A DNA stretch of 64,000 nucleotides from Pseudomonas silvicola (GTDB lineage: Bacteria > Pseudomonadota > Gammaproteobacteria > Pseudomonadales > Pseudomonadaceae). This document shows positions 4,624-47,749 of the stretch, piece by piece; the first letter of the stretch is position 1; each line of letters starts with the position of its first letter. The stretch spans positions 5,726,501 through 5,790,500 of the forward strand of contig NZ_CP093280.1 in the NCBI RefSeq assembly GCF_026651855.1. Reading direction: 5' to 3'. The translations under genes were made by a program, and so were the position numbers. The notes below the pieces were generated by a model. That model was not told the origin of the DNA. It searched no databases and saw only the letters and a list, made by a program, of their open reading frames with translations.

Positions 4624-5625
4624 ATGCACCATTCCGATGATATTGCGAACTTGTTCAACAGACTCGGCGCGCATGTGGGCGACTATCAGGAGATAGAGTC
4701 TGTTTTCGAATACCACGAAGAATCCCTGCCACCCACCCCGGCGCCAGCGCCTTCGACCACCGCCCGCCAGCCGCTGAGCCGCCTGCTGCAGGAAATCGAA
4801 CAGCAACGCCAGCGCCTGGAGGCCGCCAGTGGCGCACCGCAGGCTTTCGCCCCCCTGGGCAAGGCCAGGGTTGTCGCCGTGGTGTCGGCCCAGGGCGGGG
4901 TCGGCAAGAGTACTTTGGCCGGCGTGCTGGCCAATGCCCTCAAGCGGCCTGGCGGGCGCACCCTGGCACTGGACCTGTCACCGCAGAACGCCCTGTGCCT
5001 GCACGTGGGCGGTACCCTGCAGTGGCCGGGCATCGCCCAGAACGCAGGCGGCCATGGCCGTGAATTGCTGCGCGAGGGCTACGGTGGCAGCCACTGCCTG
5101 GCCTACGGCGTGGTCGACGACGTTCAGCGCGTAGCCTTTGAACAACGGCTGGCCAATGACCCGCTGTGGCTGGCCGGGTACCTGGCTGCCCTGGACCTCA
5201 ATGCGCACGACACCGTGATCATCGACACGCCCCCCGGCGCCTCGGTGTACCTGAGCCAGGCCCTGGAAGTGGCTGACGTGGTGGTGGTCGTGACCACCGC
5301 CGAAGCCGCGTCCTATGCCTCCCTTGACCAGATGGACCGCCTGCTCGCCCCCTACCTGCAACGCCCAGCCCCAGCGCACTGCACCTTTGTCATCAACCAG
5401 CTGGACACGTCCCGCCAGTTCAGCCTCGACATGTGCGCGGTACTGAAGAACAGAACCGGCATGCCGCTGCTGGGGGTGGTTCGCCAGGATCACTTCCTCA
5501 GCGAGTCATTGGCGTACGACCGCGATCCGTTGGCGCATACCCCAAACACCCGAGGCTGCCAAGATGCCCTCGACCTCATCGAATCATTGTGTGAATTGCT
5601 AGTGCAAACCACGCGAGAGCTCTGA
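4624..5625 (+). CDS. bcsQ: cellulose biosynthesis protein BcsQ (WssA), MinD-like ATPase with BcsR-like N-terminus
   Basis: About 333 residues. The N-terminus (MHHSDDIANLFNRLGAHVGDYQEIE) resembles the small protein BcsR. After a Pro-rich linker, a ParA/MinD ATPase domain starts near residue 82 with the deviant Walker A VVSAQGGVGKST and the later DTPPGAS. BcsQ proteins help localise and assemble the cellulose synthase at the inner membrane. It is the first gene of the operon, five bases before bcsA. ATG 4624 is chosen because the BcsR-like motif begins there and the upstream ATG 4471 overlaps the promoter. The BcsR and BcsQ parts, separate genes in E. coli, are fused here. Confidence 0.85.
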   Translation: MHHSDDIANLFNRLGAHVGDYQEIESVFEYHEESLPPTPAPAPSTTARQPLSRLLQEIEQQRQRLEAASGAPQAFAPLGKARVVAVVSAQGGVGKSTLAGVLANALKRPGGRTLALDLSPQNALCLHVGGTLQWPGIAQNAGGHGRELLREGYGGSHCLAYGVVDDVQRVAFEQRLANDPLWLAGYLAALDLNAHDTVIIDTPPGASVYLSQALEVADVVVVVTTAEAASYASLDQMDRLLAPYLQRPAPAHCTFVINQLDTSRQFSLDMCAVLKNRTGMPLLGVVRQDHFLSESLAYDRDPLAHTPNTRGCQDALDLIESLCELLVQTTREL

Positions 5626-5630
5626 ATGCC

Positions 5631-7868
5631 ATGACCGACGCCCCACACCCTAAGCCCGGCTTCAAGGGGCGCGCCGAACTGCGCCTGAACGGTTGGCTGA
5701 GCCGCTTCCGCCAATGGCGTGGCATGGCCCGCTGGACGCTGATCCTGGGCACCACGGCCATCGCCGCGCTGCTGCTGGTCAGCATCGTCAGCGCGCCCCT
5801 GGACCTGTATACCCAGTGCCTGTTCGCCGCCCTGTGCTTCCTCTCGGCGCTGCTGCTCAAACGCCTGCCGGGGCGCTTGCCGGTGCTAGCGCTGATCGTG
5901 CTGTCGCTGGTGGCCTCGCTGCGCTACGCCTACTGGCGCCTGGCCGACACCCTGGGGTTCGACGGCTGGCTGGACTCGGTGTTCGGCTATGGCCTGATGG
6001 CCGCCGAGCTGTACGCGCTGGTGGTGCTGCTGTTCGGATACGTGCAGACCGCCTGGCCCTTGCGGCGCCAGCCAGTACTGCTGGCCGGTGAGCCCAGCGA
6101 ATGGCCGACCGTGGACGTGTTCATCCCCACCTACAACGAAGCGCTGAACATCGTGAAGCTGAGCATCTTCGCCGCCCAGGCGATGGACTGGCCCAAGGAC
6201 AAGCTGCGCATCCACGTGCTGGACGATGGCCGCCGCGATGAATTCAAGCGCCTGTGCCACAGCATCGGCGTGAACTACATCACCCGTGACAACAACGACC
6301 ACGCCAAGGCCGGCAACCTCAACGAGGCACTCAAGGCTACCGACGGCGAATACATCGCCATGTTCGACGCCGACCATGTGCCCACCCGCTCCTTCCTGCA
6401 GATCGGCATGGGCTGGTTCCTCAAGGACCCGAAACTGGCGATGCTGCAAACCCCGCACTTCTTCTTTTCGCCCGACCCGTTCGAGAAGAATCTCAACACC
6501 TTCCGTGCCGTGCCCAACGAAGGCGAGTTGTTCTACGGCCTGGTGCAGGACGGCAATGACCTATGGAACGCCACCTTCTTCTGTGGTTCGTGCGCCATAT
6601 TGCGCCGCAAGCCGCTGGAAGAAATAGGCGGTGTTGCCGTGGAAACGGTCACCGAGGACGCCCACACCGCGCTCAAGCTCAACCGCGCCGGCTACAACAC
6701 CGCGTACCTGGCCATTCCACAGGCCGCGGGCCTGGCCACCGAGAGCCTGTCACGGCACATCAGCCAGCGCATCCGCTGGGCCCGCGGCATGGCGCAGATC
6801 TTCCGGGTGGACAACCCACTGCTCGGCAAGGGTCTGAAGCTGGGCCAGCGCGTGTGCTATGCCAACGCCATGCTGCACTTTTTCTATGGCCTGCCGCGCC
6901 TGGTGTTCCTGACAGCCCCCCTGGCGTACCTGATCTTCGGGGCGCAGATCTTCCACGCCTCGGCCTTGATGATCACTGCCTACGCCCTGCCGCATCTGTT
7001 TCACTCCAACCTGACCAACTCGCGTATTCAGGGGCGCTTTCGCCATTCGTTCTGGAACGAGGTGTACGAGACGGTACTGGCCTGGTACATCATGCCGCCG
7101 GTACTGATGGCCCTGGTCAAACCCACCTTCGGGGGCTTCAACGTCACCGACAAGGGCGGCATCATCGCCCGGGAATACTTCGACTGGAAACTCGCACGCC
7201 CGTACATCGTGCTGCTGGTGCTGAACCTGATCGGCCTGGGCTTCGGCATTCACCAGTTGATCTGGGGCGCGCCGAATACCGCCATCACCGTGCTGATCAA
7301 CGGCACCTGGACCCTCTACAACCTGATCATCATCAGCGCCGCGGTAGCGGTGGCCAGTGAAAGCCGCCAGGTACGCTCCGAACCGCGGGTGCGCGCCGAG
7401 CTGCCGGTGAAGGTGCGATGGGCCAACGGTCACGAAGTGATCTGCACCACCCAGGACTTCTCGCAGCACGGCCTGGGCTTCAAATTGCCTGCCGGCACGA
7501 CCGCCCAGGCCGGTGAGCGGGTGCGCGTGACGCTGTCGCGCAACGCCGCCGCACGCATATCCCACGCCGAGTTCGACACCACCGTGGTGTTCAGCAAAGG
7601 CCAATACGTGGGCGTGCGCTTCGACCCGCTGACCCTGCGCCAGCAAAGTGAACTGGTGCGCATGACTTTCTCGCGGGCCGACACCTGGGCCGCCAGCTGG
7701 GGCAGTGGCAAGGTCGACACCCCGCTGTCGGCCCTGCGTGAAGTCAGCGCCATCGGGCTGCTGGGCATGGTCGCACTGCTCAAGGCCCTCATCAGCCGCC
7801 CCTCTGACACATCGACGGCGCGCGTCGCGTCTTCGCTCGCGCTCGATTCCAATCTGGACAAGTCATGA
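5631..7868 (+). CDS. bcsA: cellulose synthase catalytic subunit BcsA (WssB)
   Basis: This 745-residue inner-membrane glycosyltransferase polymerises UDP-glucose into beta-1,4-glucan. Several hydrophobic helices precede the GT2 domain, which shows DDG (near residue 198), DADH (near 246), TED (near 342) and QRIRW (near 380), the full D,D,D,QxxRW set. After further membrane helices a PilZ domain follows with RSEPR (RxxxR) and DFSQHG (D-x-S-x-x-G) near residues 580-620, so c-di-GMP activation is expected. Length is slightly below E. coli BcsA (872) but typical for Pseudomonas WssB. bcsB starts within its stop codon region. Confidence 0.95.
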   Translation: MTDAPHPKPGFKGRAELRLNGWLSRFRQWRGMARWTLILGTTAIAALLLVSIVSAPLDLYTQCLFAALCFLSALLLKRLPGRLPVLALIVLSLVASLRYAYWRLADTLGFDGWLDSVFGYGLMAAELYALVVLLFGYVQTAWPLRRQPVLLAGEPSEWPTVDVFIPTYNEALNIVKLSIFAAQAMDWPKDKLRIHVLDDGRRDEFKRLCHSIGVNYITRDNNDHAKAGNLNEALKATDGEYIAMFDADHVPTRSFLQIGMGWFLKDPKLAMLQTPHFFFSPDPFEKNLNTFRAVPNEGELFYGLVQDGNDLWNATFFCGSCAILRRKPLEEIGGVAVETVTEDAHTALKLNRAGYNTAYLAIPQAAGLATESLSRHISQRIRWARGMAQIFRVDNPLLGKGLKLGQRVCYANAMLHFFYGLPRLVFLTAPLAYLIFGAQIFHASALMITAYALPHLFHSNLTNSRIQGRFRHSFWNEVYETVLAWYIMPPVLMALVKPTFGGFNVTDKGGIIAREYFDWKLARPYIVLLVLNLIGLGFGIHQLIWGAPNTAITVLINGTWTLYNLIIISAAVAVASESRQVRSEPRVRAELPVKVRWANGHEVICTTQDFSQHGLGFKLPAGTTAQAGERVRVTLSRNAAARISHAEFDTTVVFSKGQYVGVRFDPLTLRQQSELVRMTFSRADTWAASWGSGKVDTPLSALREVSAIGLLGMVALLKALISRPSDTSTARVASSLALDSNLDKS

Positions 7869-36321: not shown

Positions 36322-36423
36322 CGCCGCGTTAGCCTTTCTGGGGGCTGGCGTGCCAGTTCCCGCTCCCCCTCGCACTTGCACGTTGGGCACGGCGCCCGGC
36401 TGCGCGCAATAAAGGATTGCCCC

Positions 36424-38199
36424 ATGGCAAACGCAAGACCCAAAGCGGACGTAGTAGTCATCGGCCTGGGCTGGTCCGGCTCGGTGATCGCCGAAGAACT
36501 GGCCAGGGCCGGGCTCAAGGTCGTCGCCATCGAGCGCGGCGCCTGGCGCGACACCGCCACCGATTTCCCCCCCTCGGTGGACACCGATGAACTGCGCTGG
36601 GCCACGCGCAAGGAAATCCTGCAGCCACCGAAGCTGGAAACCTACACCTTCCGCAACAACGCCACGCAACAGGCATTGCCGGTACGCGAGTGGAGCAACC
36701 TGACGCTGGGCTACAACGTCGGCGGCGCCGGTACCCACTGGGCCGCCGCTTCGTGGCGCTTCAACCCGTTCGACTTCCAGCCCTACAGCAAGACCGTCGA
36801 GCGCTACGGCAAGCAGCAACTGGTGCCTGGCCTGCAAGTACAGGACTGGGGCATCACCTACGACGAGCTCGAGCCCTTCTACGATCGTTTCGAACGCATC
36901 GCCGGCACCAGCGGCCAGGCCGGGGTCATCAATGGCAAGATCATTCCCGGCGGCAACCCGTTCGAAGGCTCGCGCAGCCGCGACTTCCCCACCCCGCCCC
37001 TGGTGCCCAGCCGCTGGAACGACATCTTCACCCAGAAAACCACGGAGTTGGGTTACCACCCCTTCCCGGTTCCGGCCGGTACCATCTCGCGCGCCTACGT
37101 CAATGCCCTGGGCGTGCACATGGGCCCCTGCACCTACTGCGGCTACTGCCAACTGTTCGGGTGCGGCAACTGGTCCAAAAGCAGCCCCAACGCCTGTGTG
37201 GTACCCGCGCTGATGCGCCAGCCTACCTTCGAGGTGATGACGGAGACGGAGGTGCTGCACATCAACAAGGCACCCGACGGCAAGACAGCCACCGGGGTGA
37301 GCTTCGTCGGCAAGGATGGCGTGGTCGGCGAGCAGCCCGCCGATATTGTCATCGTCGCCGCCTACCAGCTCGACAACGTACGCCTGATGCTGCTGTCGGG
37401 AATCGGCGAGCCTTACGACCCCCGCACCAAGCGTGGGGTGATCGGCCGCAACTACAGTTTCCAGACCCTGTCCTACGCCTACCTGTGGTTCGAAAACGAG
37501 TACCTCAACCCATTCATCAATACCGGTTGCCTGGCCATCCAGATCGACGACTTCAATGCCGACAACTTTGACCACAGCGGCCTGGGTTTCATCGGTGGCG
37601 CGGGTATTCAGTCGCTGTCCAACAACGGCCTGCCCATCGGCATGGCCGGGGTGCTGCCCAAGGGTGCGCCCGCGTGGGGCAAAGGCTGGAAACAGTCGTT
37701 CCAGCACAGCTACCAGAACTGGGCCATGGTGCAGGGCCAGGGCACCAGCTACTCCCATGAAGACGCCTATTTCGACCTCGACCCCGTGTACAAAGACAAC
37801 TTCGGCCGCCCGCTGATGCGCATGACCTTCGACTACAACCTCAATGACAAGCGCTCCGGCGAGTTCGTGCGCCAGAAATGCGAAGCCATCGCCAAGGCCG
37901 TAGGCGGCACGCAGGTCGAGTCCTACAACTTCGCGGCCGACCATTACACACCCTTCCGCGCCAACGACTCCTCGCACACCATCGGTGGCGTGGTGATGGG
38001 CACCGACCCGAAAACCAGTGCCCTGAACCGCTACCAGCAGAGCTGGGACGTGCACAACGTGTTTGTCCTGGGTGCCTCCTCGTTCCCCAACAATGGCGGT
38101 TTCAACCCCACCGTCACCATTGGTGCGCTGGCCTTGTGGACCGCCAAGGCAATCAAGGAACAGTACGTGAAGAACCCCGGCCCGCTGGTTCAGGCATAA
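36424..38199 (+). CDS. GMC-family FAD dehydrogenase subunit (operon 1)
   Basis: About 591 residues. The FAD motif GLGWSGSVIAEELARAGLKV lies at residues 14-33; GGAGTHWAAASWRF and the C-terminal SFPNNGGFNPTVTIGALALW are typical of the gluconate/2-ketogluconate/sorbitol dehydrogenase flavoproteins. It lacks its own signal and would be exported with subunit 3. It oxidises a sugar or sugar acid in the periplasm and passes electrons to the cytochrome; the exact substrate cannot be told. A cysteine cluster (CTYCGYCQLFGCG) near residue 238 may hold an iron-sulfur centre, as known in some members. Confidence 0.88.
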   Translation: MANARPKADVVVIGLGWSGSVIAEELARAGLKVVAIERGAWRDTATDFPPSVDTDELRWATRKEILQPPKLETYTFRNNATQQALPVREWSNLTLGYNVGGAGTHWAAASWRFNPFDFQPYSKTVERYGKQQLVPGLQVQDWGITYDELEPFYDRFERIAGTSGQAGVINGKIIPGGNPFEGSRSRDFPTPPLVPSRWNDIFTQKTTELGYHPFPVPAGTISRAYVNALGVHMGPCTYCGYCQLFGCGNWSKSSPNACVVPALMRQPTFEVMTETEVLHINKAPDGKTATGVSFVGKDGVVGEQPADIVIVAAYQLDNVRLMLLSGIGEPYDPRTKRGVIGRNYSFQTLSYAYLWFENEYLNPFINTGCLAIQIDDFNADNFDHSGLGFIGGAGIQSLSNNGLPIGMAGVLPKGAPAWGKGWKQSFQHSYQNWAMVQGQGTSYSHEDAYFDLDPVYKDNFGRPLMRMTFDYNLNDKRSGEFVRQKCEAIAKAVGGTQVESYNFAADHYTPFRANDSSHTIGGVVMGTDPKTSALNRYQQSWDVHNVFVLGASSFPNNGGFNPTVTIGALALWTAKAIKEQYVKNPGPLVQA

Positions 38200-38211
38200 G
38201 GACACTAACCA

Positions 38212-39513
38212 ATGAAAAGAACAATCATGGCGGGGCTGGCGATCGTGGTCGTAGCCGGCATCGGGGCGGCGCTGTACATCAACGGCAGCACCCGCGCCGA
38301 TGACATCGCCGATAACCAATTGCAGGCCGCGGACAGCACGCCCCCCGATCCGGCCCAGGTGCGCCAGGGTGCGTATATCGCCGTGCAGGGTGACTGCGCC
38401 GCCTGCCACACGGCCCCGGGCGGCAAGGCTTTCGCCGGTGGCTATGGCCTGCAGACGCCGTTTGGCGTGATCAACTCCACCAACATCACCCCTGATCGCC
38501 AGACCGGCATCGGCAATTGGACCGAGCGGGATTTCTTCCGTGCCGTGCGCCACGGCAAGCGCAAGGACGGCCAATTGCTGTACCCGGCCATGCCCTATAA
38601 CGCCTACGTGCAGATGAGCGACAGCGACCTGCATGACCTGTGGGCCTACATGCGCTCGCTGGCCCCGGTCAGCCAGGCACCGGCGGCCAATACCCTGGGC
38701 TTTCCCTATGATATTCGCCTGGCGATGCTGGGGTGGAACCTGCTGTTCTTCAAGAACGCCGCCTACGTGCCGGTACCTGAGCAATCGGCGCAATGGAACC
38801 GAGGCCGCTACCTGGTGGACGGCGCCGGCCACTGTGCCGCCTGCCATACGCCGAAGAACGCCTTGGGCGGCGACACCGGCGCCTACCTGCAAGGCGCCGC
38901 GCTGCTGGGCGGGCATGCTCCCGAGATCACCAACGATGCCCACCTGGGGCTGGGTAACTGGAGCGCGGAGCAGGTCCGGCAATACCTGAAAACCGGTAGC
39001 AACGACACCGCCGTGGCGGCCGGCGCCATGGGTGAAGCGGTGGAGCATTCCACACAGTACCTCAATGACACGGACCTGACCGACATTGCCCTGTACCTCA
39101 AGTCGTTGCCAGGCTCAGGCACCCAGGCGCCCGCCGGGCTGGCCGCCAACGCCCCGGTGATGCAACGCGGCGCGCGGGTGTACGAGACCAACTGCATGGC
39201 CTGCCACAATGTGCGTGGCGAGGGCATTGGCGGTATGGTGCCGGCCTTCGCCGACAACTCGGGCATGCGTACCCCTGGCGGCGCGAACCTGATCAGCGCG
39301 GTGCTCAAGGGCGGACGCGCGGCGGCCACCGACAGCAATATCACCGCAGCGGGCATGCCGTCCTTCGCCTGGAAACTGAACGACACCGACATTGCCGCCG
39401 TGCTGACCTACGTGCGCAACAGCTGGGGCAACGCCGCGCCCGCCGTGGCCCCCGCGCAGGTGGCCAAGGCGCGCACCGCGCTGAAAGCCGACACACCGAT
39501 CAGCGGCCTGTGA
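38212..39513 (+). CDS. triheme cytochrome c subunit (operon 1)
   Basis: 433 residues with an N-terminal membrane anchor (IMAGLAIVVVAGIGAALYI) and three CxxCH heme sites: CAACH near residue 63, CAACH near 207 and CMACH near 330. This is the standard cytochrome of gluconate-dehydrogenase-type complexes, moving electrons from FAD to ubiquinone or the oxidase. It starts 12 bases after the GMC gene. Its single-copy organisation is the reference for the triplicated paralogue at 43367. Confidence 0.92.
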   Translation: MKRTIMAGLAIVVVAGIGAALYINGSTRADDIADNQLQAADSTPPDPAQVRQGAYIAVQGDCAACHTAPGGKAFAGGYGLQTPFGVINSTNITPDRQTGIGNWTERDFFRAVRHGKRKDGQLLYPAMPYNAYVQMSDSDLHDLWAYMRSLAPVSQAPAANTLGFPYDIRLAMLGWNLLFFKNAAYVPVPEQSAQWNRGRYLVDGAGHCAACHTPKNALGGDTGAYLQGAALLGGHAPEITNDAHLGLGNWSAEQVRQYLKTGSNDTAVAAGAMGEAVEHSTQYLNDTDLTDIALYLKSLPGSGTQAPAGLAANAPVMQRGARVYETNCMACHNVRGEGIGGMVPAFADNSGMRTPGGANLISAVLKGGRAAATDSNITAAGMPSFAWKLNDTDIAAVLTYVRNSWGNAAPAVAPAQVAKARTALKADTPISGL

Positions 39514-39577: not shown

Positions 39578-40639
39578 ATGGTAAATTGCCCTTGGCCTCC
39601 CCCTTACGGAAATGTTTCGTTGGACAGCATCAATCGAAAGAAACGCCTGGTTCATGTGGCCGAGCTGGCCGGGGTCAGTCTCAGCACGGTCGACCGTGTA
39701 CTCAATGAGCGCGGCAGTGTCTCCGACGCCAAGCGCCGCAAGGTGTTGAACGCCGCACGTGCTTTGGACCTGCGGCGCGTGCTGCCCTCACCGGTGCACG
39801 GCCTGTTGCGCTTCGACCTGCTGATGGTCGACAGCACCACAGACCATTACCGGCGCGTGGCAAAGGGGTTTGCACAACAGGCCAACCTGTATCGCTCGCG
39901 GATGGTGCTGCAACGCCACATCTGGCGAGAGGGCAACCCGGGCGAGCTGGTCGACCTGATCAACAACCCGACCACGGCCCGGCAAGGGTTGATCGTGGTC
40001 GCACAGGACCAGCCCGCCGTTCGCGCCGCGCTCAAAGCACAGATCGACCAGGGTGTGCCGGTGGTGCTGCTGACCAGCAGCCTGTCCGAACTCAGCGGCG
40101 CCACCTACATCGGCATCGACAACCGCATGGCTGGCCGCAGTGCCGGGCGGCTGCTCAGCCAGTGGGCCATTCCCACCCGGGGGCGGGTGCTGCTGATCAC
40201 CAACTCGCTGCTCTACCACGCCCACCAGGAGCGGGTGGAAGGCTTCCTGCAAGTGTTGCGTGAACGCGCCCCCGGGCTGCAAGTGATCGGGCCTGTGGGC
40301 TGTCACGACGATGACCACAAGACCGCCCAGGCCGTGCACGATGCCGTGGCCGACGGGCACCCCCTGGCGGCGGTCTATAACACCGGCAGCGGCTCCGCCG
40401 GTATCCGCCAGGCACTGCTGGCGCAAAACCTGCGCCCCGTCTGGCTGACTCATGAGGCCAGCGAGCAGCACGCGCAATTCTTGCGCGAAGGCTTGCTGTC
40501 ACTGGTCATCGACCAGGACCCCGAGGGCCAGGCCGAGGCCGCCATCCAGCACCTGCTCGTCGCCAACGGCGACCTGGAAGCGCCTGCCAGGGCAACCCCT
40601 CAATTGCGCATAGTGATCGAGGAGACCCTCCCCAACTGA
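39578..40639 (+). CDS. LacI-family transcriptional regulator
   Basis: About 340-353 residues. The LacI helix-turn-helix is clear (RLVHVAELAGVSLSTVDRVL, NERGSV), followed by a periplasmic-binding-protein-like sensor (LIVVAQDQPAV, GIDNRMAGRSAGRLL). The annotated ATG is 39578; TTG 39620, seven residues before the helix-turn-helix, is an equally plausible start. It lies between the two dehydrogenase operons on the same strand and probably senses the sugar or acid that they oxidise. A LacI-type palindrome is present at 35379. Confidence 0.87.
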   Translation: MVNCPWPPPYGNVSLDSINRKKRLVHVAELAGVSLSTVDRVLNERGSVSDAKRRKVLNAARALDLRRVLPSPVHGLLRFDLLMVDSTTDHYRRVAKGFAQQANLYRSRMVLQRHIWREGNPGELVDLINNPTTARQGLIVVAQDQPAVRAALKAQIDQGVPVVLLTSSLSELSGATYIGIDNRMAGRSAGRLLSQWAIPTRGRVLLITNSLLYHAHQERVEGFLQVLRERAPGLQVIGPVGCHDDDHKTAQAVHDAVADGHPLAAVYNTGSGSAGIRQALLAQNLRPVWLTHEASEQHAQFLREGLLSLVIDQDPEGQAEAAIQHLLVANGDLEAPARATPQLRIVIEETLPN

Positions 40640-40783: not shown

Positions 40784-41509
40784 ATGCAGCGCAGAGATTT
40801 CCTTTCATCGGCACTGGCCCTGGCGGCAGCGTCCACGTTGCCTGCTGCGCGCGCCGAGGTCATCAGCGGCGGCCAGCCATGGGAACCCGGCAAAGCCAAC
40901 GTGCCTTCGTTGCCCGCACCCCGTCAGGGCGGCCTGGCGTTTTTCACCCAGGCTGAATTCGACGCGGCCGGCGCACTGGCTGACCGCCTGATCCCGGCCG
41001 ACGCGCTGAGCATCGGTGGCAAGGAAGCCGGTTGCGCCGTGTTCATCGACCGCCAACTGGCCGGCGACTACGGCAAGGGCGCCACCCTGTACCGACTGGG
41101 CCGTTTCGTCAAAGGCACACCGGAACAGGGCACCCAGTCGCCGCTGACCCCGGCAGACCGTTGGCGCCAGGGCCTCGCGGCGTTGGACAACCATTGCCAC
41201 AAGACCTTCAGCACCGCCTATGCGCAATTGGATGGCGCCCGGCAGGATGACCTGCTGCGGCAAATGGAGAGCGGCAAGCTGGCCCTGGAGCTGGGGCCGG
41301 ACCTGGAGGTCAAGGAGCTGTTCGAACAGATCCTGGCCAATGTCCGCGAAGGGTTCTTCGCCGACCCCCTCTACGGCGGCAACAAGGGCATGGCCAGCTG
41401 GAAAATGATCGGCTTCCCGGGTGCGCGCTATGACTTTCGCGACGTGATCGCCAAGAAGGGCCAGAAGCTGTCGATCATCCCCACGAGTTTGATCGACAAC
41501 ACCCTCTGA
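40784..41509 (+). CDS. gluconate 2-dehydrogenase subunit 3 family protein (operon 2)
   Basis: 241 residues, paralogous to the protein at 35602 (shared DRLIPAD, ANVREGFFADPLYGGNKGMA and KMIGFPGARYDFR). The N-terminus MQRRDFLSSALALAAASTLP with cleavage near ARA is a twin-arginine signal. Role as for operon 1: export and stability of the GMC subunit. First gene of the second three-gene operon. Confidence 0.87.
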   Translation: MQRRDFLSSALALAAASTLPAARAEVISGGQPWEPGKANVPSLPAPRQGGLAFFTQAEFDAAGALADRLIPADALSIGGKEAGCAVFIDRQLAGDYGKGATLYRLGRFVKGTPEQGTQSPLTPADRWRQGLAALDNHCHKTFSTAYAQLDGARQDDLLRQMESGKLALELGPDLEVKELFEQILANVREGFFADPLYGGNKGMASWKMIGFPGARYDFRDVIAKKGQKLSIIPTSLIDNTL

Positions 41510-41591
41510 CACCCCATTCCGTGAGCGGTGCGGCTCTGCCGACACTCGCCTGTAACCCCGTGATCATGCTGTATTGAAGAGGTACTGATTG

Positions 41592-43370
41592 ATGGCGAAT
41601 GTACGCCCAAAAGCCGATGCGGTGATCGTCGGCCTCGGCTGGTGCGGTTCGTTGATGGCCGAAGAATTGACCCGCGCCGGGCTCAACGTCGTGGCGATCG
41701 AACGTGGCCCCTGGTTCGAAACCTCCACTGACTTTCCACCGTCGGTAGACACCGACGAACTGCGCTGGGACACCCGTCGCAGCATGCTGCTGCCACCGGC
41801 CATCGAAACCACCACCTTTCGCAACAACCGCTCGCAGACCGCGCTGCCCACCCGTGACTGGAGCCTGAACGAGCTGGGTTACAACGTCGGTGGTTCAGGT
41901 ACCCACTGGGCCGGCATGGCCTGGCGCTTCCTGCCGTTTGACTTCGAACCCTACAGTTTTACCCTCAAGCGCTACGGCAAGCAGCAGATCACCGAGGGCC
42001 TGATCGTTCAGGACTGGGGGGTGAGCTACGACGACCTGGAACCCTTCTACGAACGCTTCGAGAAGATCGCCGGCGTTTCCGGCAAGGCGGGTGTGCTCAA
42101 CGGCCAGAAGATCGACGGTGCGAATATCTTCGAAGGCAACCGCAAAAGCGAGTTTCCGCTACCGCCGCTGGCCACCACGCGCCTGACGGACCTGTTCACC
42201 GACGGTAGCAAAAAGCTCGGCCTGCACCCGTTCATGGTACCGGCTGGCCAGGCGTCCCAGGCTTACACCAACCCGCTGGGCGTGCGCATGGGCCCTTGCA
42301 CGTATTGCGGCTACTGCCTGTACTACGGCTGCGGCAACTTCTCCAAGTCCAGCCCCAACGCCTGCGTGATACCGGCCCTGATGCAACGCAGCAACTTCAC
42401 CGTGCTGACCGAGTCGGCGGTGCTGCGCGCCACCTTGGCTGAGGACGGCAAGACCGCCACGGGCGTGACGTACCTGGACCGCAACAAGAAGGAATGGGAG
42501 CAACCGGCGGACATCGTCATCTTCTCGGCCTTCCAGATGCAGAATGTGCGGTTGTTGCTGCTGTCGAAAATCGGCAAGCCGTACAACCCCGAAACCCGTG
42601 AGGGGGTGGTGGGCCGGGCCTACAGCTTCCAGACCGTGTCTGGCGCCAACCTGTTCTTCGAAGACGAGCAGTTGAACCAGTACATCGGCGCCGGGGCCCT
42701 CTCCGCCCAGGTGGACGACTACAACGGCGATAACTTCGACCATACCGGCAAAGGCTTCATCGGCGGCGCCGGCATTCTGGTGGTGGCCCGCGGCGCGCGC
42801 CCGATCGGCAACGCCGACGCCGTGCCACCAGGCACCCCACGCTGGGGCAGCGAGTGGAAGAAGGCCTATACCCATGCGTTTCAGAACGGGACCTTCATCT
42901 TCAACCAGGGCACCAGCTTCTCCCATGACGAGTGCTACCTGGACCTGGACCCGGAGTACAAGGACGCCAACGGCGACCCGCTGATTCGCGTCACCTTCGA
43001 CTACAACGAAAACGACCGGCGCATGGCCCGTTTCACCGAAGACCGCGCCGTCGAGATCGGCAAGGCCATGGGCGCCAAGATCGTCAACGGCTTTGACTCG
43101 GCCGCCGTCAACTACGGCCCTTACCTGCCTGCCAGTGACCACACCATCGGTGGCGCGGTGATGGGCCTGGACCCCAAGACCAGCGTGCTCAACCGCTACC
43201 AGCAAAGCTGGGACGTGCACAACGTGTTCGTGCTGGGCGCCTCATCGTTTCCCAACAACGCCGGCTACAACCCGACCTCCACCATCGGCGCCCTGAGCCT
43301 GTGGACGGCCAAGGCCATCATCGATCAATACCTGGGCAAACGTGGCCCTCTGGTGGAGGTACCGGCATGA
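41592..43370 (+). CDS. GMC-family FAD dehydrogenase subunit (operon 2)
   Basis: About 592 residues, paralogous to 36424 along its whole length: GLGWCGSLMAEELTRAGLNV, GGSGTHWAGMAWRF, CTYCGYCLYYGCG, SFPNNAGYNPTSTIGALSLW. The protein sequences have diverged clearly while the promoter element is almost unchanged, so the operons may oxidise different substrates under one control. ATG 41592 is used; TTG 41589 directly precedes it. Its stop overlaps the cytochrome start. Confidence 0.88.
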   Translation: MANVRPKADAVIVGLGWCGSLMAEELTRAGLNVVAIERGPWFETSTDFPPSVDTDELRWDTRRSMLLPPAIETTTFRNNRSQTALPTRDWSLNELGYNVGGSGTHWAGMAWRFLPFDFEPYSFTLKRYGKQQITEGLIVQDWGVSYDDLEPFYERFEKIAGVSGKAGVLNGQKIDGANIFEGNRKSEFPLPPLATTRLTDLFTDGSKKLGLHPFMVPAGQASQAYTNPLGVRMGPCTYCGYCLYYGCGNFSKSSPNACVIPALMQRSNFTVLTESAVLRATLAEDGKTATGVTYLDRNKKEWEQPADIVIFSAFQMQNVRLLLLSKIGKPYNPETREGVVGRAYSFQTVSGANLFFEDEQLNQYIGAGALSAQVDDYNGDNFDHTGKGFIGGAGILVVARGARPIGNADAVPPGTPRWGSEWKKAYTHAFQNGTFIFNQGTSFSHDECYLDLDPEYKDANGDPLIRVTFDYNENDRRMARFTEDRAVEIGKAMGAKIVNGFDSAAVNYGPYLPASDHTIGGAVMGLDPKTSVLNRYQQSWDVHNVFVLGASSFPNNAGYNPTSTIGALSLWTAKAIIDQYLGKRGPLVEVPA

Positions 43371-46294
43371 AGCGCCGACATTCCCTGGCCAGCATCGCCC
43401 TGGGCGGCCTGGCCCTGTGCGGTGTGGTCGGCCTGGTGCTGGCCGCCGAGACCCTGACGCAACCCGGCCAGCAGACCGACAGTGCCCAGGGCGTCAAGGC
43501 CCCGGCCACCACCGAAGACCCCGCCGTTGCCCGCGGCCGCTACGTGGCCATCGCCGGCGACTGCGCCGCGTGCCACACCGACCCGCACCAGGGCAAGCCT
43601 TTCGCCGGTGGCTACGCCTTGCAGACGCCTTTCGGCACCCTGCTGGCCAGCAACATCACGTCGGACAAGAACACCGGTATCGGTGCCTGGACCGAGGCCG
43701 AGTTCACCCGCGCGGTGCGCGAGGGCAAAGGCCGTCACGGCGAGAACCTGTACCCGGCCATGCCGTACAACGCCTACGTGAAAGTCAGCGACCAGGACAT
43801 GCATGACCTGTGGGCCTACATGCAGACGGTGCCGGCGGTGGACAACAAGGTGGTCTCCAACCAGTTGCCCTTCCCGTTCAACATCCGTCTGATGATGATG
43901 GGCTGGAACCTGCTGTTCTTCGACAAGACCCCGTTCGTGCCCGTGGCCAGCGCCAGCGCGCAGATCAACCGTGGCGCCTACCTGGTACAAGGCCTGGGCC
44001 ACTGCGCGGCCTGCCACACGGCCAAGAACTTCATGGGCGGCGACAAGGGTGGCGCGTTCCTGCAAGGCGGCGAGCTGGAAGGCTGGCATGCGCCGGAGAT
44101 CACCGGTAACCCTGCCGTGGGCATTGGTGGCTGGACACCCGCGCAGGTAGTGCAGTACCTCAAGACAGGCAGCAACGACGTAGCCGTCGCCTCGGGCCCC
44201 ATGGCCGAAGCGGTGACCAACTCCACGCAGCACATGACCGACGATGACCTGCAGGCCATTGCCGCGTACCTGCAAAGCCTGCCCGGCTCCGATACCGCCA
44301 AGGCACAGCCGCTGGCGGCCAGTGACCCGGTCATGCAACGGGGTGCCAATGTGTACTCGGCCAACTGCGCCGCGTGCCACACCGACCCGCACCAGGGCAA
44401 GCCTTTCGCCGGTGGCTACGCCTTGCAGACGCCTTTCGGCACCCTGCTGGCCAGCAACATCACGTCGGACAAGAACACCGGTATCGGTGCCTGGACCGAG
44501 GCCGAGTTCACCCGCGCGGTGCGCGAGGGCAAAGGCCGTCACGGCGAGAACCTGTACCCGGCCATGCCGTACAACGCCTACGTGAAAGTCAGCGACCAGG
44601 ACATGCATGACCTGTGGGCCTACATGCAGACGGTGCCGGCGGTGGACAACAAGGTGGTCTCCAACCAGTTGCCCTTCCCGTTCAACATCCGTCTGATGAT
44701 GATGGGCTGGAACCTGCTGTTCTTCGACAAGACCCCGTTCGTGCCCGTGGCCAGCGCCAGCGCGCAGATCAACCGTGGCGCCTACCTGGTACAAGGCCTG
44801 GGCCACTGCGCGGCCTGCCACACGGCCAAGAACTTCATGGGCGGCGACAAGGGTGGCGCGTTCCTGCAAGGCGGCGAGCTGGAAGGCTGGCATGCGCCGG
44901 AGATCACCGGTAACCCTGCCGTGGGCATTGGTGGCTGGACACCCGCGCAGGTAGTGCAGTACCTCAAGACAGGCAGCAACGACGTAGCCGTCGCCTCGGG
45001 CCCCATGGCCGAAGCGGTGACCAACTCCACGCAGCACATGACCGACGATGACCTGCAGGCCATTGCCGCGTACCTGCAAAGCCTGCCCGGCTCCGATACC
45101 GCCAAGGCACAGCCGCTGGCGGCCAGTGACCCGGTCATGCAACGGGGTGCCAATGTGTACTCGGCCAACTGCGCCGCGTGCCACACCGACCCGCACCAGG
45201 GCAAGCCTTTCGCCGGTGGCTACGCCTTGCAGACGCCTTTCGGCACCCTGCTGGCCAGCAACATCACGTCGGACAAGAACACCGGTATCGGTGCCTGGAC
45301 CGAGGCCGAGTTCACCCGCGCGGTGCGCGAGGGCAAAGGCCGTCACGGCGAGAACCTGTACCCGGCCATGCCGTACAACGCCTACGTGAAAGTCAGCGAC
45401 CAGGACATGCATGACCTGTGGGCCTACATGCAGACGGTGCCGGCGGTGGACAACAAGGTGGTCTCCAACCAGTTGCCCTTCCCGTTCAACATCCGTCTGA
45501 TGATGATGGGCTGGAACCTGCTGTTCTTCGACAAGACCCCGTTCGTGCCCGTGGCCAGCGCCAGCGCGCAGATCAACCGTGGCGCCTACCTGGTACAAGG
45601 CCTGGGCCACTGCGCGGCCTGCCACACGGCCAAGAACTTCATGGGCGGCGACAAGGGTGGCGCGTTCCTGCAAGGCGGCGAGCTGGAAGGCTGGCATGCG
45701 CCGGAGATCACCGGTAACCCTGCCGTGGGCATTGGTGGCTGGACACCCGCGCAGGTAGTGCAGTACCTCAAGACAGGCAGCAACGACGTAGCCGTCGCCT
45801 CGGGCCCCATGGCCGAAGCGGTGACCAACTCCACGCAGCACATGACCGACGATGACCTGCAGGCCATTGCCGCGTACCTGCAAAGCCTGCCCGGCTCCGA
45901 TACCGCCAAGGCACAGCCGCTGGCGGCCAGTGACCCGGTCATGCAACGGGGTGCCAATGTGTACTCGGCCAACTGCGCCGCGTGCCACAACAGCGATGGC
46001 AAGGGAATCAACCAACTGGCCGCGGGCATTGGCAATAACCCCGGCGTGCAGGCTGTCAACGCTCAGAGCCTGATGACCACCGTGCTGCAGGGAGGCCGCG
46101 GTGCCGTGACCCTGGACAACCCTACCAGCGGCGCGATGCCCAGCTTTGCCTGGAAACTGTCCGATGAGCAGGTCGCGGCCACCCTGACGTATATCCGCAA
46201 CAGTTGGGGCAACGCTGCACCGGCGGTCACGGCCAAGCAGGTCGCCGACACCCGCAAGGACCTCAAAATGCCGGCTCAACTGAGCATTCACTGA
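43367..46294 (+). CDS. cytochrome c subunit with internal triplication, seven heme motifs (operon 2)
   Basis: 975 residues, where 430-440 is normal. A signal/anchor (SIALGGLALCGVVGLVLA) is followed by three copies of a 268-residue unit and then the ordinary third-heme domain. Each unit holds CAACHTDPH and CAACHTAKN, and the tail holds CAACHNSDG, giving seven CxxCH sites against three in the operon 1 paralogue. The frame is open throughout. ATG 43367 overlaps the GMC stop (ATGA). Role: electron acceptor of the GMC subunit in the periplasm. Whether the long form is made and functional is unknown; without two of the three units the protein would have 439 residues. Confidence 0.88.
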   Translation: MKRRHSLASIALGGLALCGVVGLVLAAETLTQPGQQTDSAQGVKAPATTEDPAVARGRYVAIAGDCAACHTDPHQGKPFAGGYALQTPFGTLLASNITSDKNTGIGAWTEAEFTRAVREGKGRHGENLYPAMPYNAYVKVSDQDMHDLWAYMQTVPAVDNKVVSNQLPFPFNIRLMMMGWNLLFFDKTPFVPVASASAQINRGAYLVQGLGHCAACHTAKNFMGGDKGGAFLQGGELEGWHAPEITGNPAVGIGGWTPAQVVQYLKTGSNDVAVASGPMAEAVTNSTQHMTDDDLQAIAAYLQSLPGSDTAKAQPLAASDPVMQRGANVYSANCAACHTDPHQGKPFAGGYALQTPFGTLLASNITSDKNTGIGAWTEAEFTRAVREGKGRHGENLYPAMPYNAYVKVSDQDMHDLWAYMQTVPAVDNKVVSNQLPFPFNIRLMMMGWNLLFFDKTPFVPVASASAQINRGAYLVQGLGHCAACHTAKNFMGGDKGGAFLQGGELEGWHAPEITGNPAVGIGGWTPAQVVQYLKTGSNDVAVASGPMAEAVTNSTQHMTDDDLQAIAAYLQSLPGSDTAKAQPLAASDPVMQRGANVYSANCAACHTDPHQGKPFAGGYALQTPFGTLLASNITSDKNTGIGAWTEAEFTRAVREGKGRHGENLYPAMPYNAYVKVSDQDMHDLWAYMQTVPAVDNKVVSNQLPFPFNIRLMMMGWNLLFFDKTPFVPVASASAQINRGAYLVQGLGHCAACHTAKNFMGGDKGGAFLQGGELEGWHAPEITGNPAVGIGGWTPAQVVQYLKTGSNDVAVASGPMAEAVTNSTQHMTDDDLQAIAAYLQSLPGSDTAKAQPLAASDPVMQRGANVYSANCAACHNSDGKGINQLAAGIGNNPGVQAVNAQSLMTTVLQGGRGAVTLDNPTSGAMPSFAWKLSDEQVAATLTYIRNSWGNAAPAVTAKQVADTRKDLKMPAQLSIH
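43560..45971 (+). repeat. three tandem 804-bp direct repeats inside the cytochrome gene
   Basis: Units run 43560-44363, 44364-45167 and 45168-45971. They look identical at the nucleotide level wherever I compared them, and shifted-frame translations of the units are also identical. The period is 804 bp (268 codons), so the frame is kept. Each junction lies at an 18-bp sequence coding for the CAACH heme motif that occurs at both heme 1 and heme 3 of the basic gene, which explains how unequal recombination could create the array. Confidence 0.93.
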
Positions 46295-46402: not shown

Positions 46403-47749
46403 ATGGGACCCCTACCCTCCTACCTGGCCCGCTACCCGCGCGCCACCTTGCTGATGCTGTCGGTCTGCACCGCCTCCGGTGCCCAGGCCGCCGACGCGTT
46501 CGCAGCCGACTCGCCCTGGATGACCGGCGACTGGGGCGGCCTGCGAAGCGAATGGCTGAACAAGGGCATCGACATCAAGATGGGCTACACCGGCGAGTCG
46601 GCGTCCAACCTGCGCGGCGGCTACCAGAAGCATGACCGGGTGACCCGCTACGCCGACCAGTTCAACCTGGGGGCCGACATCGACCTGCAAAAACTGCTGG
46701 GTTGGCAGGACGCGGCCTTCAGTCTATCGGTCACCAACCGCAACGGCAGCAACATCAACGACAAGATCAGCGACCCACGGGCCACCGGCCTGGGCTCGAC
46801 TCAGGAAATCCAGGGCCGTGGCAGCGTCAGCCGCCTCAGCGAACTGTGGGTGAGCAAGGGCTGGTTCGACGACACCCTGAACATCAAGGCCGGCCGCTTC
46901 GCCGTCAGCGATGACTTCGCCGTCGAGGACTGCCTGTTCCAGGGCCTGGCCTTCTGTGGCTCGCAACCCGGCAACTACGTGGACAGCATCTACAACGGCC
47001 CCATCAGCCAATGGGCCGCACGAGTGCGCTACCGCCTGAGCAGCGAGGTCTATGCACAGATCGGCGCCTTCAACATCAACCCCTCGGACCTGGACAACGA
47101 CAACGGCTTCAAGCTCAACGGCGCCGGCACCACGGGCACCCTGGTACCGGTGGAATTGGTATGGGCCCCCACGGTCAACCGGCTGCCGGGCGAATACCGC
47201 ATCGGCTACTACCACAGCACCGCCAACGGCACCGACGTCTACAAGGACAGCAACAACCAGCCAGCGGCCCTCACGGGCGAAGCCTACCGCAGCGATTCCA
47301 GCCGCCATGGTTTCTGGCTGGTGGGCAAGCAGCAACTGACCTCGGTCAACGGCGACGCTTCGCGCGGGCTGGTACTGACGGCCAGTGCCACCTTCCAGGA
47401 CCGCGCCACCACCCCGGTGGACAGCTACCAGAAGGTCAGCCTGGTGTACAAAGGCCCCTTCGACGCCCGCCCCACCGACACCCTTGGCCTGGGCATCGCC
47501 CGCGTGCATGCCAGTTCCCTGTTCCTGCGCAACGCCAAGACCGCAAACGCCGCCAGCGGCCTGAGCTACGACGACGCCGGCTACGTGCCCGAACAGCACT
47601 CCGAATACGCCACCGAGCTGAACTACGGCATCCAGGCGACCAAATGGCTGAACATCATGCCCAACCTGCAGTACATCAAGCACCCGGATGGTGTGCGTGA
47701 AGTCGACAATGCGCTGGTGCTGGGCTTGCAGGTGCAGTCACAGTTCTGA
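46403..47749 (+). CDS. oprB: OprB-family carbohydrate-selective porin
   Basis: 448 residues: a signal peptide ending near SGAQA, the OprB opening SPWMTGDWGGLRSEWLNKGI, and many beta-strands ending in a C-terminal Phe (GLQVQSQF), the outer-membrane insertion signal. OprB porins let glucose and other sugars into the periplasm. Its place directly after the second dehydrogenase operon suggests it feeds that oxidation system. AAAAGGA lies 12 bases before the start. Confidence 0.9.
   Translation: MGPLPSYLARYPRATLLMLSVCTASGAQAADAFAADSPWMTGDWGGLRSEWLNKGIDIKMGYTGESASNLRGGYQKHDRVTRYADQFNLGADIDLQKLLGWQDAAFSLSVTNRNGSNINDKISDPRATGLGSTQEIQGRGSVSRLSELWVSKGWFDDTLNIKAGRFAVSDDFAVEDCLFQGLAFCGSQPGNYVDSIYNGPISQWAARVRYRLSSEVYAQIGAFNINPSDLDNDNGFKLNGAGTTGTLVPVELVWAPTVNRLPGEYRIGYYHSTANGTDVYKDSNNQPAALTGEAYRSDSSRHGFWLVGKQQLTSVNGDASRGLVLTASATFQDRATTPVDSYQKVSLVYKGPFDARPTDTLGLGIARVHASSLFLRNAKTANAASGLSYDDAGYVPEQHSEYATELNYGIQATKWLNIMPNLQYIKHPDGVREVDNALVLGLQVQSQF

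Follow-up and report, generated by a model that had tools for sequence, protein, structure and literature searches.

The stretch of Pseudomonas silvicola DNA analyzed here (64,000 nucleotides, hereafter the window) corresponds to positions 5726501 to 5790500 of C1, a 7,613,303-bp contig of a genome (G000) assembled into three contigs. A dehydrogenase gene cluster lies on the forward strand of the window and begins with a LacI-family regulator (39578 to 40639), recognized by its Pfam LacI and Peripla_BP_4 matches. This is followed by a dehydrogenase small subunit of the Gluconate_2-dh3 type (40784 to 41509; PF13618, 1.3e-29, with a TAT_signal match below the cut-off), the FAD-containing catalytic subunit, a GMC oxidoreductase (41589 to 43370; Pfam GMC_oxred_N and GMC_oxred_C), a cytochrome c subunit (43367 to 46294), and, as the last gene of the cluster, an OprB-type porin (46403 to 47749; Pfam OprB, 3.6e-109). 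Directly upstream of the operon, positions 36376 to 39513 hold another GMC oxidoreductase and triheme cytochrome pair, and the cytochrome has matches at 40 places in the genome when pieces and contig C2 are included.

The cytochrome gene starts with an ATG that overlaps the stop codon of the GMC gene (ATGA) and encodes a protein of 975 residues containing seven CAACH motifs, whose codons begin at 43562, 44003, 44366, 44807, 45170, 45611, and 45974. The Pfam Cytochrom_C profile scored above its cut-off on seven stretches of this protein, and all seven heme domains look complete at the sequence level. When the window was compared to itself at a lag of 804 bp, it was identical without a mismatch over 1,626 bases (43560 to 45185). 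The array therefore extends from 43560 to 45989 and consists of three 804-bp units (43560 to 44363, 44364 to 45167, and 45168 to 45971), which have no mismatches between them, plus an 18-bp remainder (45972 to 45989). This identity is far beyond chance. The first-pass annotation had described a cytochrome gene carrying a perfect in-frame triplication and encoding seven hemes, and its coordinates, unit length, heme count, and open frame were all confirmed when the sequence was re-examined. It had described neither the 18-bp seam of the array, nor a second complete operon with a one-unit cytochrome, nor nine further duplication loci on the scanned part of C1.

The second operon lies at approximately 3.525 to 3.532 Mb of C1 (L096, within 3520000 to 3535000) and contains a regulator, small subunit, GMC subunit, triheme cytochrome, and OprB porin. 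Its DNA is 83 to 90% identical to that of the window operon, with 66% for the regulator, and its GMC, cytochrome, and porin genes are 97 to 99% identical to those of the operon in a relative, G286. The operon closest to that of the window by gene order and regulator was found in Pseudomonas sp. M47T1 (L017), with identities of 81% for the regulator, 90% for the GMC gene, 86% for the unit, 86% for the porin, and 85 to 90% for the upstream pair. Both L017 and L096 share the gene order of the window operon, with 90% identical DNA for GMC and 86 to 88% for the unit, but each has a single unit and three hemes, and their exact identity between the heme-1 and heme-3 sites is 7 and 10 bp, compared to 18 bp in the window.

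In phmmer searches the triheme unit matched the cytochrome subunits of a quinone alcohol dehydrogenase (9x0q, E value of 2.8e-89), an FAD glucose dehydrogenase (8hdd, the beta subunit, 3.5e-84), and a fructose dehydrogenase (7w2j, 2.2e-80). The similarity covers the triheme unit and also the operon, which combines GMC, Gluconate_2-dh3, and cytochrome genes, and the columns of the CxxCH motifs and of the candidate axial methionines are conserved in 33 aligned sequences. These solved chains have 462 to 486 residues and belong to a triheme family, whereas the window protein as assembled has 975 residues and seven motifs; in its single-unit form it would have exactly three. Judged by its sequence match and its position beside the GMC and Gluconate_2-dh3 genes, the window gene is a member of the dehydrogenase cytochrome subunit family, and it departs from the family only in the number of units, the very point that is in doubt.

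The structure of the array points to where the duplicated section begins and ends. The same 18 bases, ACTGCGCCGCGTGCCACA, are present at the heme-1 and heme-3 sites, each with different flanks, and the 18-bp remainder at the end of the array is this microhomology, common to the heme-1 and heme-3 codons. At the internal seams, such as the one with which unit 2 begins, the left flank of heme 3 is joined to the right flank of heme 1. The duplicated section thus starts at one heme motif and stops at another, and in every new domain the N-terminal part of domain 3 is joined to the body of domain 1. When the gene is reduced to its single-unit form (the unique head, 43367 to 43559, plus one unit plus the unique tail, 45990 to 46294), the heme-1 and heme-3 sites are identical over 18 bp and the unit is bounded by this short direct repeat at 43560 and 45972 with differing flanks, as expected for a short-homology duplication in vivo. 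The corresponding identity in 78 other triheme genes, which include paralogues from this genome and second cytochromes of some loci, averaged 7.4 bp with a maximum of 17 bp. We also considered whether a long heme-1/heme-3 match is sufficient to cause duplication, and this was ruled out by locus L068, which has no tandem even though its hemes 1 and 2 share 20 bp of identity and each of its other two heme pairs shares 17 bp.

We then looked for tandem units in relatives. Sixty-nine GTDB loci matching the protein were collected and the heme motifs of each frame listed; 68 were readable (L042 gave no row), and none of the 68 carried tandem units. Among 398 genomes of the genus, 11 including G000 matched the unit at an E value of at most 1e-150, and none of the 10 others had a tandem; two candidate places were scored per genome in this search, with one match in each of the 10, and the two sets of loci overlap. 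The nearest named relatives are Pseudomonas. A 121-residue peptide spanning the heme-3 to heme-1 seam was matched in full (1 to 121) only in G000 when 398 genus and 398 phylum genomes were searched, both sets including G000 itself and with at most 11 candidates scored per genome. Partial matches (15 to 120 and 21 to 120, 44 to 45% identity) were obtained in G642 and G743. A match to residues 6 to 121 in G763 was examined as a possible second array and rejected, as it comes from a triheme gene with one unit, read together with the upstream GMC gene across the stop codon of the latter. In the plasmid collection, the best 15 of 607 records all matched the seam peptide in two separate pieces, and the window cytochrome gene itself gave one partial match, to Pantoea. 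Locus L082, from a Vibrio relative, encodes five CxxCH motifs in one 724-residue frame (5329 to 7503), and was rejected as a tandem array because the extra motifs are N-terminal and divergent rather than units. In this protein a hydrophobic N terminus with two divergent heme motifs precedes the triheme unit; this is another natural form of chain lengthening. Locus L076 has four CxxCH motifs, the extra one lying outside the unit pattern. Among the literature titles searched, none dealt with tandem expansion in a cytochrome of this family or with a genome of this kind.

These results bear on two readings in which the array is an established feature of the gene. The first is that it is ancient and has been held identical by gene conversion. 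Perfect identity, taken alone, is compatible with this, but two units were found in 0 of the 68 readable loci and 0 of the 10 other matching genus genomes, and conversion would have to erase synonymous changes over 2.4 kb in this strain only. We give this reading almost no credence, and active homogenization, which the first-pass annotation had offered as one option, is not needed to account for the identity of the units. The second is that the protein is an adapted seven-heme cytochrome, in which selection maintains the extra hemes, and these extend the route of electrons from the FAD subunit toward the membrane quinone. Its seven domains look complete by Pfam, and both the frame and the operon are intact. 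In addition, electrons in the Burkholderia cepacia FAD glucose dehydrogenase are proposed to pass from heme 3 to heme 2 to heme 1 (PMC5979317), an order that would place on the path any units inserted between heme 3 at the C terminus and heme 1 at the N terminus. Against this, no relative examined has the array, identical copies give no sign of age or tuning, and nine unrelated loci of the contig show the same type of event.

Nor does the kept frame indicate selection. We counted same-strand exact repeats lying 0.5 to 5 kb apart within long open frames over 1,444,000 bp of C1, and found that 874 of 1,035 repeats of at least 12 bp, 139 of 150 of at least 14 bp, and 37 of 38 of at least 16 bp were in phase. 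Since short exact repeats on this codon-biased chromosome are mostly in phase, an in-phase seam is the default outcome, and the open frame across the seams of the array and across the other seams inside genes is not evidence of selection. Nothing we have seen supports selection for a longer chain, and an adapted seven-heme cytochrome seems to us highly improbable. The part of the first-pass interpretation that described a triheme GMC dehydrogenase cytochrome with its heme-1 to heme-3 section present three times is upheld, as is its naming of a very recent event or an assembly artefact as possible origins, whereas its proposal of a natural heme-chain extension finds no support, given the absence of the array from all relatives examined, the lack of divergence between units, and the default nature of the frame.

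The cytochrome gene is not the only duplicated gene on C1. A total of 1,584,000 bp of this contig including the window (21%) was scanned for direct repeats with a minimum length of 300 bp and a lag of 300 to 15,000 bp. The stretches covered were those surrounding the window and the paralogue, plus others picked arbitrarily but not at random. The scan returned 13 rows, one of which is the 1,608-bp harmonic of the window array, leaving 12 duplicated segments at 10 loci, the window included, with two segments at 2.10 to 2.11 Mb counted as one locus. The segments are 751 to 4053 bp long and their copies differ by 0, 1, or 2 mismatches; the three mismatches between copies on C1 are all transitions. 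The other nine loci are at C1 positions 310773/318119, 371933, 517208, 2036866 to 2040625, 2099629 to 2112956, 3565360, 3619193, 4653148, and 5825683, within loci L125 to L154 and L172 to L210. The same scan found no such locus in 1,420,000 bp of control sequence, made up of 520,000 bp from four one- or two-contig Pseudomonas genomes (G174, G286, G005, and G010) and 900,000 bp of complete plasmids; at a lower cut-off, G286 yielded one 144-bp repeat. If the rates were equal, the probability of finding all 10 loci on C1 would be 0.0017, or approximately 0.003 when the window locus is left out. Another 973,825 bp, mostly of draft loci, gave none at 200 bp, but short-read drafts could hardly hold such copies. 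No exact inverted repeat longer than 164 bp within 20 kb was found in the C1 sequence. Units of approximately 160 bp, both direct and inverted and REP-like in appearance, occur at C1 positions 5555640 to 5557000, 5847868 to 5848600, 4626718 to 4627400, and 4639621 to 4640000. A comparison of C1 to G286 over 200 kb, in which deletions were sought, showed rearrangements and nothing decisive.

Six of the loci are simple tandems, and their seams share 18 bp (window), 16 bp (5825683), 14 bp (3619193), 16 bp (4653148), 8 bp plus a near match (371933), and 0 bp with a gapped near match (517208). Family searches identified the affected genes as those for a nonribosomal peptide synthetase (NRPS), MsbA, MutL, HflK, PurA, MiaA, NuoM, HutG, HutI, CysNC, CysD, and a thiamine-diphosphate enzyme, and NuoL was recognized at the NuoM locus by sequence comparison. 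The result is a set of in-frame chimeric genes (MutL::HflK, PurA::MiaA, NuoM::NuoL, HutG::HutI, and CysN::CysD) together with internally duplicated MsbA and NRPS genes. By our reading of the sequence, three of the loci, cysD/cysNC, nuoM::nuoL, and mutL/miaA, would each need two or three jumps. At cysD-cysNC one seam has 15 bp, at a P-loop, and the other has 16 bp; NuoM continues into NuoL, within which the sequence then jumps ahead; and a 4-kb copy of hflK-purA sits between a MutL that is cut at profile position 547 of 634 (3 to 547 matched) and a MiaA that starts at position 59 of 288 (59 to 285 matched). This insertion fuses MutL to HflK and PurA to MiaA, and MiaA has only one match in the assembly, which lacks the N terminus. 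The msbA gene, at a locus spanning C1 371333 to 373918, carries an in-frame internal duplication of 786 bp (262 residues). It is the sole copy found of this TIGR02203 equivalog, and the second-ranking match of the genome, with 48% identity, covers the C-terminal part only. MsbA is essential in species in which it has been tested, and for this reason it is difficult to believe that a living cell would have an allele of this form as its only msbA.

The 10 loci on C1 show the same fault at unrelated places, and this excess of duplications, the damage to genes, and the loci that need more than one jump all favor an artefact. We consider it rather probable, though by no means secure, that the triplication arose in the handling of the DNA or in its assembly. 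Its seams show that a backward jump from the heme-3 to the heme-1 codons was made twice in an ordinary triheme gene at the 18-bp identity. Because of the excess of jumps on the contig and the damaged genes that have no intact copy, we infer that this jump most likely took place during handling of the DNA or reads rather than in the living chromosome, either as an in vitro chimera or through the misjoining of overlapping consensus pieces. In that case the true gene would contain a single 804-bp unit and measure 1,320 bp, encoding 439 residues and three hemes as in the relatives.

Published rates agree with placing the jumps outside the cell. In E. coli lines followed for approximately 4,480 (wild-type) and 4,320 (mutS mutant) divisions, one study reports 0 tandem duplications in 67 wild-type lines and 1 in 37 mutS mutant lines, with long reads for 19 and 18 lines, respectively (PMC10292909), so that even the loss of mutS gave only one tandem. 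In a second report, a 2.6-kb duplication in P. aeruginosa was lost at a rate of approximately 9.8e-5 per generation (PMC12607827). From these figures, many coexisting near-perfect duplications would not be expected in one chromosome.

Several observations weigh in the opposite direction. Apart from the duplications C1 appears sound, with six full 16S genes on one contig and open frames that match those of two controls in length, and this counts against an artefact. As in false duplications of genome assemblies, the copies here are near identical and local, and they damage genes for which no backup was found; in contrast to these, most of the seams measured have 14 to 18 bp of microhomology, which matches no assembler fault known to us. 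We know of no assembler that joins sequences at 14 to 18 bp, and seams of this length are natural for template switching. Chimeras from whole-genome amplification are typically inverted, whereas the long repeats of C1 are direct, which also speaks against an artefact. The three transitions between copies could be real divergence and would then do the same.

The second contig, C2 (952,764 bp), was examined through stretches L161 to L164 and L237 to L254. It resembles Pantoea megaplasmids, being 97% identical over one 3.9-kb stretch with approximately 35 gaps relative to the nearest record, and elsewhere in the two stretches searched it is 75 to 81% identical to Pantoea plasmids among the better-covering matches. 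Four 20-kb pieces of it contain broken frames. Since C2 is Pantoea plasmid-like and has such gaps and broken frames, the sample appears to have been mixed and partly noisy, which favors an artefact; the contamination estimate for the genome is 8.04%, and C2 has the look of a noisy contaminant that was binned together with the Pseudomonas sequence. A scan that tolerates noise, and that picked up the C1 loci as its positive control, found no long direct duplication in 440 kb of C2, compared to approximately 2.8 expected (probability of zero, 0.06). The absence of duplications from these 440 kb would count against an artefact, although few were expected. Forty kilobases of the third contig, C3, contained no long direct duplication and one dispersed 184-bp repeat.

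The same observations can be read as the record of genuine, recent, and unstable duplications in an unusually duplication-prone strain. The 18-bp homology between hemes 1 and 3 would have primed a first tandem, and unequal exchange between the 804-bp copies would have made the third unit. The longer protein would be a by-product, probably neutral as long as the second intact operon, with its one-unit cytochrome, serves as a backup. Head-to-tail perfect copies with a short sequence shared at the seam are what short-homology tandem duplications in bacteria look like, and four of the six simple tandems bear this usual mark, with seams of 18, 16, 14, and 16 bp. The lack of long inverted copies, the otherwise clean C1, and the absence of duplications from the 440 kb of C2 are also in line with such an origin. 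Loss of RecA or MutS was considered as the cause of a duplication-prone state and set aside, as both have full-looking frames (360 and 865 residues, respectively), and with both intact, unequal exchange would be possible. MutL is truncated at one locus, which might, speculatively, relax recombination between short or imperfect matches. Such duplications are normally rare and isolated, however, and here there are 10 loci in 1.584 Mb, three of them multijump, with the sole MsbA interrupted, from which an effect on viability would be expected. The number of loci is far above what PMC10292909 and PMC12607827 would lead one to expect. On balance we regard genuine duplication as possible but doubtful.

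Supposing that the jumps are real, they may reflect a burst of replication template switching at short matches, none longer than 18 bp, as a bacterial equivalent of MMBIR or chromoanasynthesis. Such a burst would have left approximately 50 loci of fresh duplications and chimeric genes, if the 10 loci seen in 21% of the contig are scaled up to the whole. Among them would be a natural seven-heme cytochrome spliced exactly at a heme motif, and the truncation of MutL may have helped. We think this unlikely.

The pattern on the contig points to an artefact or to a duplication-prone state rather than to selection on the cytochrome. It is this pattern that matters, and the story of the cytochrome itself probably falls away. 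With an artefactual origin, which is the reading we prefer, this genome would be no basis for statements on gene duplication, fusion proteins, or copy number. Direct copies that are nearly identical, in many cases with 14- to 18-bp seams, and kept in phase by codon bias, would then be a useful warning sign, because they yield open, plausible-looking fusion genes. Should the duplications prove real, the genome would be a rare snapshot of a chromosome-wide duplication burst. The cytochrome would then have gained four heme domains, placed between its native C-terminal heme 3 and its native N-terminal heme 1, with the intact second operon able to cover a loss of function, and its heme-to-heme seam would show how multiheme chains can be lengthened in one step with whole domains kept.
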